From assembly GCA_004143945.1 (NCBI GenBank), contig SEHB01000001.1, forward strand, positions 1 to 64,000: a DNA stretch of 64,000 bases, given 5' to 3'. The translations under genes and the position numbers were made by a program. Shown here in pieces: positions 3,126 through 62,534 of this stretch. The number at the start of each line of letters is the position of its first letter. Position 1 is the stretch's first letter. This stretch comes from Lysobacteraceae bacterium. Its GTDB lineage: Bacteria; Pseudomonadota; Gammaproteobacteria; Xanthomonadales; Rhodanobacteraceae. The notes beneath the pieces are model-generated. The model made no database searches, was not told the origin of the DNA, and saw nothing but the letters and a program-made list of their open reading frames with translations.

Positions 3126-4844
3126 GTGGCCCGCCGCCTGCGTCTTCTCCGCCTGCTCGTCCTTGCAGCGCTCGTTGCATTCGGACTTCCGGCGCTCGCG
3201 CAGGATGCGAGCGTGGCCGGCGAGGTGACGACGCCGTACCCGACATTCCGTCATCTCTCGATCGAATGGGCGATCGACGGCGACGACGATCTCGACGGCG
3301 TCGTCTCGATGCGCTTCCGGCGCGTCGGCGACAGTGCCTGGCGTGACGGCATGCCGTTGCGCAGGACCCCGGCCGGTGGCTACGGCGGCTTCACCTGGGG
3401 CAATCGCCATTCCGGAAGCCTGTTCGGCCTGCAACCGGGCACCTCGTACGAAATCGAACTCGTGCTGGCCGACCCGGATGGCGGCAATGCGCAGCGCACG
3501 GTGTTCGCCGACACGCGCGCCCAACCGGCGCCGATGCCAGGTGCACCGGTGCGCGTGGTCACGCCGGCGACGCTCGCGAGCATGATCGCGAGTGCGCAAC
3601 CGGGCGATATCCTGCTGCTGCAGCCAGGCGTCTATCCGGGCTTCGCGTTCGAGCGCGACGGCGAGGTCGGGCAGCCGATCGTTCTGCGCGGAACGCCGGG
3701 TGCAGTCATCGACGGCGAGCTCGGCCTGTTCTTCCGCCGCCACGTGATGCTGGATCGCCTCGTCGTGAACGGGCGGATCCGCTTCAACGGGTCCGACGAG
3801 ATCTCGGTCGTGCACTGCACGGTCAATGCGAGCCCGAGCGCGTACAACGGTGACGGCATCGTGAGCTACCTGCGCTCGGAAAACGCATGGATCGCCGACA
3901 ACGTGGTGACCGGTACCACGCCGTGGCAGGAGGGCGCGATGGGCGCCGACGGCGACAATCGCGGCGAGGGCATCCTCGTGACCGGCCCCGGCCACGTGAT
4001 CGAACACAACGACGTGCGCGGCTTCCGCGACGCGATCTCGCTGCTCGAAGACGCCGAGGCGGTCGACCAGTTCAGCATCGACATCCTCGGCAACGAGATC
4101 GCACAGGCGCTAGACGATGCGATCGAGGCCGATTTCTGCGCGCACAACTGCCGCATCGTCGGCAATCGCGCCACCAATGCATTCATCGCGTTCTCTTCAC
4201 AGCCCTCGCTCGGCGGCCCGACCTACTTCGTGCGCAATGCCGCGTACAACGTCGCGCATGTCGCGTTCAAGCTGTATCGCGAAAGCAGCGGCGACGTGCT
4301 GCTGCACAACAGCGTGGTCAAGGCCGGCGACGGATTCGGCGTCTACGCGAGCGTGCCGGTGTCGCGCCTGTACACGCGCAACAACCTGTTCCTCGGCGGC
4401 CCCGGAGGCGAGATTGCGGGCTACGGCAACGGGGACGGCGACGTCGCCCGGATCGCCACGCTCGTGGTCGCGGGATCGAGCCTCGACCACGATGCGTTCG
4501 GCTCGACGCTCGGCACTTTCAGCGGGCGCCTCGGCGGCAGCGTGTTCGAGAGCCTCGCCCAGATGCAGGCGACCACGAGCGAAACGCATGCGGTCGAGAT
4601 CGATCTCGCGACGTTCGCGCAACCGCTCGCGTTCCCGGCGGATCCGTTGATCGCGTTCGAGCCGGCCGACCTGCGCCTCGCAAGCGGCAGCGCGGCGCGC
4701 GACGCGGGCGTCGCGATCCCGACGATCAATGTCGGATTCGAAGGCGCCGCGCCGGATGCGGGTGCCTACGAGGTCGGCTCCGCGCTGCCGCACTATGGAC
4801 CGCGTCTGGACGTGGTATTCGCGGACGGCTTCGAGGGCGGGTAG
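3126..4844 (+). CDS. Secreted right-handed beta-helix protein with C-terminal FADGFE tag
   Basis: A 572-residue exported protein. I choose GTG 3126 (GAGG at 3117-3120, five bases upstream) because the product then begins directly with a basic n-region and a hydrophobic Leu/Ala signal peptide ending ALAQD. An ATG 13 codons upstream lacks a site. Residues about 30-135 form a fibronectin III-like domain (LQPGTSYEIELVLAD). The remainder is a right-handed beta-helix of the polysaccharide-lyase type (LRGTPGAVIDGELGL, IEHNDVRGFRDAISLL, RNNLFLGG). No catalytic residues can be assigned with certainty. The last residues are VVFADGFEGG, matching the C-terminal sequence of other exported proteins in this window. 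Confidence 0.8.
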   Translation: MARRLRLLRLLVLAALVAFGLPALAQDASVAGEVTTPYPTFRHLSIEWAIDGDDDLDGVVSMRFRRVGDSAWRDGMPLRRTPAGGYGGFTWGNRHSGSLFGLQPGTSYEIELVLADPDGGNAQRTVFADTRAQPAPMPGAPVRVVTPATLASMIASAQPGDILLLQPGVYPGFAFERDGEVGQPIVLRGTPGAVIDGELGLFFRRHVMLDRLVVNGRIRFNGSDEISVVHCTVNASPSAYNGDGIVSYLRSENAWIADNVVTGTTPWQEGAMGADGDNRGEGILVTGPGHVIEHNDVRGFRDAISLLEDAEAVDQFSIDILGNEIAQALDDAIEADFCAHNCRIVGNRATNAFIAFSSQPSLGGPTYFVRNAAYNVAHVAFKLYRESSGDVLLHNSVVKAGDGFGVYASVPVSRLYTRNNLFLGGPGGEIAGYGNGDGDVARIATLVVAGSSLDHDAFGSTLGTFSGRLGGSVFESLAQMQATTSETHAVEIDLATFAQPLAFPADPLIAFEPADLRLASGSAARDAGVAIPTINVGFEGAAPDAGAYEVGSALPHYGPRLDVVFADGFEGG

Positions 4845-4915
4845 GCGGCAGCACGCGGAATGCCGACGTCGCAGAAGAACGATCGACGCGGACTCAGCGG
4901 CGACGCGCGGCGGGA

Positions 4916-60689: not shown

Positions 60690-60929
60690 CTCGATCCTTG
60701 GAGGAAAACGGTGCGGATTGGACAGGTGCAAGGTTGGAAGGTTCCGCGCGGCGCCCGCCGGGGTGGATGATGGAATGGATGGTGACTGCTGGAAAGGCCT
60801 CCAGCAGGAGTGCGCGCGCATGACGCAGGTCGAGTTGCCAGTGTCCCCTTCGAAGGCGGCCTCGACACGCACGGATCGTCGCGACAGCGCTGCCGCCACG
60901 ATCCCTCGATGCACCGAACGCCACTGGCT

Positions 60930-62534
60930 TCAGCGCTTGGACTCGCTCCCGCTCGCGAAGATGCGGTCCGATTCGTAGGCGCCGAGGTCGTAGGTGCCGA
61001 AGCGATCCTGCGAGGCGAGGTCGTCGATGCCACGCAGGTTGCCGTCGATGTCGGGCGACTTCGCCGACACCGGCGCGTCGTCGCAGAAGTCGATCGCGGC
61101 GTTGCCGGGCAGCAACCGGTAGTCGCCGCGCGCGGGGGCCTGGAACGCGATCGGCAGGATCTCGCTGCGCTCGGCCGCGACTTCGAACGTGCCCTGGTCC
61201 TTGAGGATGCAGTCGTAGCGCACGGTCGGCAGCGCACCGAAGAAGTCGAAGATGCGCTCCTTGCCCGAGACGAGGCTCGACCGACCGAGGATGTCGGTCA
61301 GGAACGCGCCCTGTTCGCCGTCGCCGAAGATCAGCGCGGGCCCGCCGTCGTTGTCGGCGAAAGTCGAATGCTCGAAGCGCAGCGATCCGCCCATCGTGAA
61401 GATCGGCGCGCAGCCCGGCGCGCCCTCGATGCAACCGTTTCCGACGACGAGGCTCGAGTACAGGCGCACCGAGGAACCCTCGCCGTGCATCCAGATCGCA
61501 CTGCCGCCGGCGGCCGCGTTGTCGCGCACGATCGCCTCGCTCAGGTGCGCGGAGCCGCCGTTGCGGACCGAGACCGCACCACCGCGTTCGGCGATGTTGC
61601 CGGACAGGCGCAGGCACTCGAGTTCGGATGCGCAGTGCCGGAACGGGCCATGCCGGAAGCGCGCGAACTGCGCGTAGCCACCGTCACCCGCGAACGCGCC
61701 GCCGCCTTCGGCCGCGCTGTTGTCGCGCAGCACGACGTCGTCGAGCAGCGCCTTCGATTCGGCGCCGCCCACGTACAGGCCGCCACCGCGGTTGGACGCC
61801 TGGTTCGCGTGCACGAGCACGCCGTCGACCGGCGTGAGCGGGTCTTTCGGATCGCTGCCGGAGCTCGCGAGCGCGCCGGAGAGCACCGCGATGCCGCCGC
61901 CGTCGATCGCCTGGTTGTCGCGCACGACGACCGCGCTCGGCTGCATGCGCAGCGTCGCGCCCGCGACGAGGATGCCGCCACCGACCGAAGCGAGGTTGTC
62001 GTGGATCTCGACGTTGCGCTCGAGCGTGACGATCGCGTTGAACGAGACCGTGAGCCCCCCGCCGTGCGAGTTGTGGTTGTGGTGGACCTCGGTGTCGGCG
62101 ACGTGGACGCGCACGCGCCCTGCGATGTTGAGGCCGCCCCAGGTGCCGATGTCGCCGCTGGCGCCGCCGCCGCTGATGTCGAGGCGCTCGATGCGCACCG
62201 GGAAGCTGTCGATGCCTTCGCCGCCCCAGATCGACAGCGTCGCCCATTCGCCGGTGCCGACGAGCGCGGTGCGACCGGTCGGAACGGTGTCTCCGCATGC
62301 GGCGTGGCCGCCGATCAGGTCGACCGCGGTATCGATGAAGGCGGTCTGGCCGAGATATGCCTGGTCGTTCGCGAGCCGGATCGTGTCCGCCTCGGGCGTC
62401 GCGGCGGCCAGCGCGACCGCTTCGGCGATCGTGTGCGCGCTGCAGGTGCCGGCGGCGCCGACGCTGATGTCGGCCGAATGGGCGGGAAGGCTGAAACCCA
62501 GCGCGAGCGCTGGCAGGAACGGGAGGATGCGCAT
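60930..62534 (-). CDS. Secreted beta-helix protein with degenerate tag (IFASGSE)
   Basis: A 534-residue protein with a signal peptide ([19 protein letters not shown]) and a Pmp-like beta-helix: [71 protein letters not shown] and [17 protein letters not shown]. The closing segment has [21 protein letters not shown] and [20 protein letters not shown]. The last part corresponds by position to the DRIFDDGFD of the beta-helix at 51003, but the DGF core is changed to SGS. The start at ATG 62534 has GGAG upstream. It is divergent from pyrG. Confidence 0.78.

Follow-up and report, generated by a model that had tools for sequence, protein, structure and literature searches.

The question raised by a 64-kb window of the genome of a Lysobacteraceae bacterium (bases 1-64000 of contig C17, in an assembly of 3.67 Mb) is why exported proteins of different folds should end with the same short peptide, and what might read it. 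The peptide, referred to here as the tag, is nine residues long and has the consensus D-x-[IL]-F-x-[DN]-G-F-[ED]. A preliminary description of the window had listed eight proteins that carry it and had taken it for a C-terminal sorting or processing signal. Since genomes with the tag nearly always also encode a particular subtype of type II secretion system (T2SS), called T2SS-B below, the peptide probably serves as an address label for that system.

The tag in the window and in its genome

Translation of the eight genes placed all eight described C-termini at their stops, with the full DGF core in six of them and a degenerate one (CYGFN, ASGSE) in two. On the plus strand, DVVFADGFEGG (4809..4841) forms the C-terminus of a beta-helix protein (gene 3126-4844), and DVIFADGFGP (40514..40543) that of a metzincin-like protease (gene 38438-40546). 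The other six lie on the minus strand. Two of these have residues beyond the core: DALFSDGFD with 18 further residues (12658..12738), at the C-terminus of a propeller protein (gene end 12655), and DRIFDDGFD with 35 (51006..51137), behind a choice-of-anchor Q domain (gene 51003-52544). DAIFTDGFDP (52643..52672) belongs to a beta-helix protein (gene end 52640), the variant DTIFCYGFNN (56411..56440; gene end 56408) lies 2 residues past a choice-of-anchor Q domain, DSLYLDGFD (59460..59486, previously given as SLYLDGFD) belongs to a DUF1554 protein (gene 59457-60689), and the degenerate 12-residue tag with ASGSE (60933..60968) to a beta-helix-like protein (gene end 60930). When all six frames of the window were scanned for DGF[DEGNQ], nine matches came up, the six tags with a full core and three others, none of which has an aromatic residue two positions ahead of Asp. 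These are AGDGFG, internal to the first tagged protein; MLRDGFQ, 36 residues ahead of the stop of a plus-strand frame ending at 51035; and a match within a frame that overlaps the 59457 gene.

The parent proteins had been described as unrelated, and their Pfam matches indeed differ: Beta_helix in four of the eight, Reg_prop, Peptidase_M10 (below its cut-off) and DUF1554, with one protein matchless. Neither the Pfam scan of these proteins nor the NCBIfam scan (E up to 1) gave a match over the tag.

In the whole genome, the pattern NTNTWYNNNGAYGGNTTYGRN had 113 matches, versus 2 for the reversed pattern used as a control. For a statistical comparison, 676 genes were called with a simple custom caller in an 800-kb sample (bases 1-400 kb of C17 and 1-400 kb of C25). 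In the last 40 residues of these proteins the core occurred 24 times, versus a mean of 0.055 and a maximum of 1 in 200 within-protein shuffles, and five times farther inside proteins, versus 0.785 expected and a maximum of 4. Of 22 terminal tags listed from this sample, 21 have Asp at position -2. The motif is thereby confirmed as real, commoner than chance and genome-wide. In a collection of 70 tagged proteins from this and other genomes, the position counts, which are partly set by how the sequences were picked, were D in 68, [IL] in 65, F in 69, D in 65 or N in 5, G in 70, F in 70, and E or D in 68. The core is the very end of 27 of the 70 proteins, and in 61 at most 6 residues come after it.

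Proteins that carry the tag and its position in them

The 70 tagged proteins matched 58 Pfam families, including GSDH, Endonuclease_1, Peptidase_S8, M10, M14, M64, FG-GAP, BNR and CBM96. The tie to signal-peptide proteins expected in the preliminary description was borne out, signal peptides being readable in 67 of the 70: 52 by a crude rule, 8 by eye in the called N-terminus and 7 by eye just upstream of the called start, with three not found. The crude rule is permissive (253 of the 676 proteins pass it); with called starts only, 17 of the 24 proteins with terminal tags in the sample pass (Fisher p 9e-4). Sec export of varied, folded exoproteins is a trait of T2SS substrates, and the tagged set displays it.

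The possibility that the tag is simply the last strand of the domain that precedes it was tried and rejected, as Pfam and NCBIfam matches, a dehydrogenase structure and a subtilase homologue all stop short of the tag or lack it. The best Protein Data Bank match of a tagged sugar dehydrogenase stops at residue 402 of 426 (best alignment only); one search of that database gave no match. Among 30 loci with homologues of the dehydrogenase, 13 tails were readable, the other 17 loci being dropped as their strand or frame was not read correctly; nine tails are tagged (NGF variants included), two are degenerate and two are untagged (L141 and L158, the latter weakly matched and belonging to an untagged genome). 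In subtilase L025 the tag is part of a surface loop: it lies within 38 residues (query 484-521) that replace 4 in SubHal (5fax), past the catalytic helix and ahead of the next part that aligns. In the cases examined, the motif is therefore not explained by a domain's own last strand. A tagged sugar-dehydrogenase-like family (L054:16692-17969) was strong, in a family panel, only in the tagged genera g1, g5, g15 and g17 and in one g26 genome.

Thirty further sites, the first 30 of the 113 listed, were examined in loci no longer than 3 kb. Twenty-four end within 8 residues of the stop and 26 within 40, while four are internal. The view that the tag stands strictly at the C-terminus therefore had to be given up. 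The tag lies right behind the signal peptide in L022 and is internal in L027, and 185 residues remain past it in L030 and at C25:96664. Two tags lie close to the called N-terminus in L132:4349-5065, the second running into ETGDTSAW, and two complete tags stand in tandem at one C-terminus in L112:2769-5063 (DLIFEDGFDPFIDLIFIDGFE). Such internal, N-terminal, tandem and loop positions fit an exposed portable epitope better than a cleavage signal, and the processing role envisaged earlier is not supported. A structure prediction for the window protein 56411-57883, based on six sequences, had a mean predicted local distance difference test score of 66.5, falling to ~30, too low to be informative, over the last 100 residues, which include the tag.

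Occurrence of the tag across genomes

Two patterns were used for other genomes, a strict one, GAYNTNNTNTTYNNNGAYGGNTTYGAN, and a relaxed one that admits NGF and omits the first Asp. The strict pattern was found in 20 of 97 genomes of the window's family and in 63 of 200 genomes of its order. Outside the order, five of 226 genomes of the class had one strict match each, and these are not tag-like, lying at least 37 residues ahead of a stop or having almost no open frame before them. Its reversed control gave 0 matches in every family and class genome and 1 in total across the order. Within its class the tag is confined to one order, in keeping with the lineage specificity proposed from the window, and many lineages of that order carry tens of copies of it in each genome. 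A scan of named genomes, a collection that may omit near relatives of the window, gave a single match, in a metagenome-assembled genome labelled Lysobacterales bacterium.

Co-occurrence with a second type II secretion system

In an all-against-all comparison of the neighbours of tagged genes, no recurrent untagged machine-like partner appeared among the 40 clusters listed. The GspD model TIGR02517 scored above its cut-off in 184 of the 200 order genomes (198 at E 0.001, other secretins included). A T2SS as such is widespread, so that the link of the tag is with the subtype. The scores suggested an extra, high-scoring GspD in tagged f1 genomes, and in a tree of 60 GspD rows two groups were resolved: clade A, with 13 rows (f1, f2; support 100/100), and a second group, B, with 44 rows (support 90/99), which holds the extra copies of tagged genomes. 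Three divergent f2 rows fell outside clade B, and the program warned of long branches. In the window's genome the T2SS-B cluster reads gspC, D, E, F, the same order as in L182, where ftsE-ftsX, a response regulator and ung follow. GspC of T2SS-B, which ends in a PDZ domain, matched T2SSC and PDZ in six of six clusters, with some PDZ scores below the Pfam cut-off. A PDZ match was found in none of four GspC counterparts of T2SS-A, the system with the clade A GspD; three of the four also failed to match T2SSC and were recognised from their position next to gspD. The tagged genomes G004, G014, G016 and G175 have a second GspD of clade A alongside T2SS-B.

In the window's family, GspD-B was present at 69% identity or more to the copy of the window's genome in 20 of 97 genomes. 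When these were compared with the tagged set (20 genomes by the strict pattern, plus G036 with 44 matches to the relaxed one), 20 genomes had both, one had only the tag, none had only GspD-B and 76 had neither (Fisher p ~8e-20, or 6e-18 with the strict pattern alone, both inflated by kinship). At the genus level, GspD-B was found in 5 of 5 tagged and 0 of 21 untagged genera (p 1.5e-5). This becomes 9e-5 if g26 is counted, a genus in which four genomes have a GspD relative of 45-47% identity and no strict tags; three of the four, re-tested with the relaxed pattern, gave 0 matches. The association holds inside genus g9, where G075 and G088 (the latter tagged by a single strict match) have both the tag and GspD-B, and G008, G032 and G061 have neither. 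The same split is repeated by GspE (80% versus 52% identity).

In the order, 107 of the 200 genomes matched GspD-B at 1e-60. Nine f2 genomes with half-length or 41%-identity matches were dropped (three of their GspD, placed in the tree, are those outside clade B), leaving 98, fragments included. GspD-B was present in 56 of 63 strictly tagged and 42 of 137 untagged genomes. When the 42 were re-tested with the relaxed pattern, whose reversed controls gave 0-4 matches per genome, 18 had 6-80 matches and 24 had 0-4. Ten genomes without GspD-B were re-tested in the same way; the eight strict-negative ones had 0-1 matches, and G152 and G180 had 15 and 10. Only one of 35 f2 genomes in the panel, G175, has strict tags, and it is the sole one with a full-length GspD-B (61% identity, clade B), whose position among the f1 copies is weakly supported (88/66; enclosing group, 95/94). 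Seven strictly tagged genomes had no GspD-B (G152, G180, G197, G201, G239, G249, G252), and a B-like GspE was found in G197 and G239. For 30 genomes a single relaxed site apiece was read, and 21 of these sites end within 6 residues of a stop. The sites in L241, L242, L247, L248, L249 and L251, from tag-poor or GspD-B-less genomes, do not, that in L255 is internal, and L253 and L260 have no readable site. We conclude that T2SS-B is nearly necessary for the tag, but not sufficient.

A separate observation concerns the genus g35, whose 18 genomes have GspD-B but hardly any tags; they may use another signal.

Proposed role of the tag

How T2SSs recognise folded substrates is a long-standing open question. 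Passages of PMC7949064 state that no common linear sequence is apparent among the substrates, and that PelI has an exposed nine-residue loop which acts as a secretion signal and makes contact with GspC and GspD. According to passages of PMC12369372, the PDZ domain of EpsC is needed for secretion of VesB and captures a fusion bearing VesB's signal, and such a domain is not present in all T2SSs. We give a slightly better than even chance to the proposal that the tag is a portable address routing folded exoproteins to T2SS-B. A tagged protein would be exported by Sec, lose its signal peptide and fold in the periplasm, where its exposed D-x-[IL]-F-x-[DN]-G-F-[ED] peptide would be recognised by T2SS-B, which would then move the protein to the outside. 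In cells with two T2SSs, the tag would sort cargo between T2SS-A and T2SS-B. We infer that T2SS-B is the reader, with the PDZ domain of GspC or the periplasmic domains of GspD as the receptor; the PDZ domain is a natural candidate, given the properties reported in PMC12369372. A more far-reaching version, in which the tag is the first linear address common to the substrates of a T2SS, works from the end, the start or a loop of a protein, is read by the GspC PDZ domain and sorts between two T2SSs, is offered more tentatively, with its chances somewhat short of even. No description of the motif, or of any linear tag of T2SS substrates, appeared among the titles and abstract openings listed in a literature search, with subscription journals mostly outside its coverage.

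Several observations weigh against this proposal. Co-occurrence does not establish function, and genomes that are related have many genes in common. The classical ligand of a PDZ domain is a free C-terminus, a role to which internal copies are ill-suited. Twenty-four of the 98 GspD-B genomes are tag-poor (18 of g35, G214, G153, and the f8 genomes G168, G204, G229 and G247), and in g35 GspC still has a PDZ match (one genome). Conversely, the good f8 assemblies G152 and G180 have tag matches without GspD-B or a B-like GspE; the single site read in G152 is a proper C-terminal tag, and the one read in G180 looks like background. No clear B-type GspD and GspE were found in G201, G249 and G252 (440-530 contigs), nor a clear B-type GspD or GspE in the tag-only family genome, G037 (85% complete, 770 contigs). 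Finally, most genomes without GspD-B are scored by the strict pattern, which misses many tagged genomes elsewhere; in the family, seven of the 76 genomes with neither element were re-tested with the relaxed one. The preliminary idea of a recognition tag for a type II-related machine thus survives in part: the carriers are exported, the tag is limited to one order and it co-occurs with T2SS-B, while strict terminality and processing fall away.

A less probable, though by no means negligible, explanation is retention at the cell surface, whereby the peptide would bind a surface receptor or glycan after the protein has left via T2SS-B or otherwise. In two window proteins the choice-of-anchor Q domain (NF041518) stops a few residues ahead of the tag, and the NCBIfam name choice-of-anchor implies variable C-terminal anchors. 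Some tagged proteins contain cadherin-like, Ig-like or carbohydrate-binding domains, and passages of PMC12369372 assign GlyGly-CTERM on VesB, a Vibrio T2SS substrate, a role in surface association. However, the tag has no hydrophobic helix or basic tail, a lipobox-like pattern is found in one of the 70 proteins, and no receptor family turned up. It is improbable that the tag and T2SS-B are both ancestral in the order and were lost jointly through shared history, with no functional link. GspD-B does mostly follow family lines, and the tag-poor GspD-B genomes and the tagged ones without GspD-B would agree with such a history, but presence and absence coincide within g9, from whose split one tagged enzyme family, taken for comparison, departs, and the single f2 genome that keeps either element has both.

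That a sortase, a rhombosortase or a legumain-like transpeptidase cuts or joins the tag, as happens with LPXTG, GlyGly-CTERM and asparaginyl-ligase motifs, is very unlikely. The [DN]-G pair, nearly invariant in the 70 proteins partly by selection of the sequences, would suit an Asx-specific ligase, and [DN]-G-F resembles N-G-L. Yet Peptidase C13 (PF01650) is present in 34 of 34 f1 genomes of the order panel, tagged or untagged, but most g48 genomes and the three f3 genomes with tags lack it; on this distribution a C13 legumain-like ligase was rejected as the cognate enzyme. Cleavage at the copies located behind a signal peptide, internally or within a catalytic domain would, moreover, cut the protein. 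Of the protease or outer-membrane gene families with which co-occurrence had been anticipated, T2SS-B follows the tag in the family and, with exceptions, in the order, and C13 does not. In two f5 genomes the core of the C13 model is matched repeatedly, 12 times in G111 and 9 times in G127, mostly in open frames of >1260 aa; these may be large caspase-fold-like proteins of a family that has expanded. A DNA-level repeat (uptake sequence, terminator or mobile element) translated by chance would account for the numerous similar DNA copies near gene ends, but has practically no chance of being correct. Synonymous sites differ among the copies of the window's genome, and in the AT-rich genomes of f9 and g48 the codons for the same peptide are AT-rich too, for example GATTTGATTTTTGAGGATGGTTTTGA (G147:C2:143143), which indicates selection at the protein level; a repeat is refuted by this codon usage.

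Should routing to T2SS-B by the tag be true, the question of substrate recognition becomes testable by a short graft, T2SS cargo becomes predictable from sequence, and a secretion handle becomes available for biotechnology. Even an anchor would be a sorting signal without a match to any model scanned.

Comparison with known systems

PEP-CTERM, MYXO-CTERM and LPXTG are, like the tag, lineage-restricted and found on dozens of unrelated proteins per genome. They are tripartite sorting signals with a membrane helix, whereas the few residues that follow the tag hold no hydrophobic helix with a basic tail. Curated NCBIfam sorting-signal models (E up to 1, eight window proteins) gave no match over it either, so that the earlier statement that it is not a PEP-CTERM, LPXTG or GlyGly-CTERM signal stands. 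GlyGly-CTERM, the rhombosortase signal of Vibrio VesB, shares with the tag the character of a T2SS-linked C-terminal label on unrelated exported proteins; it consists of a Gly motif and a transmembrane helix and is cleaved, whereas the tag has no helix and can be internal. Type IX secretion likewise uses a C-terminal element for routing to an outer-membrane machine, but that element is a folded domain of about 70-80 residues, in contrast to a nine-residue peptide that in two proteins comes just past a choice-of-anchor Q domain. Type I secretion substrates, which also have a C-terminal signal, lack a Sec signal peptide, unlike nearly all tagged proteins. A ligation motif of the legumain/C13 or GPI-transamidase type would be expected to go with C13, which the tag does not. 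Loop 3 of PelI and Pel3, substrates of the Out T2SS, is, according to passages of PMC7949064, a short exposed peptide deciding T2SS recruitment, as proposed here for the tag; it serves one enzyme family as part of a composite signal, whereas the tag is carried by 70 proteins matching 58 Pfam families.

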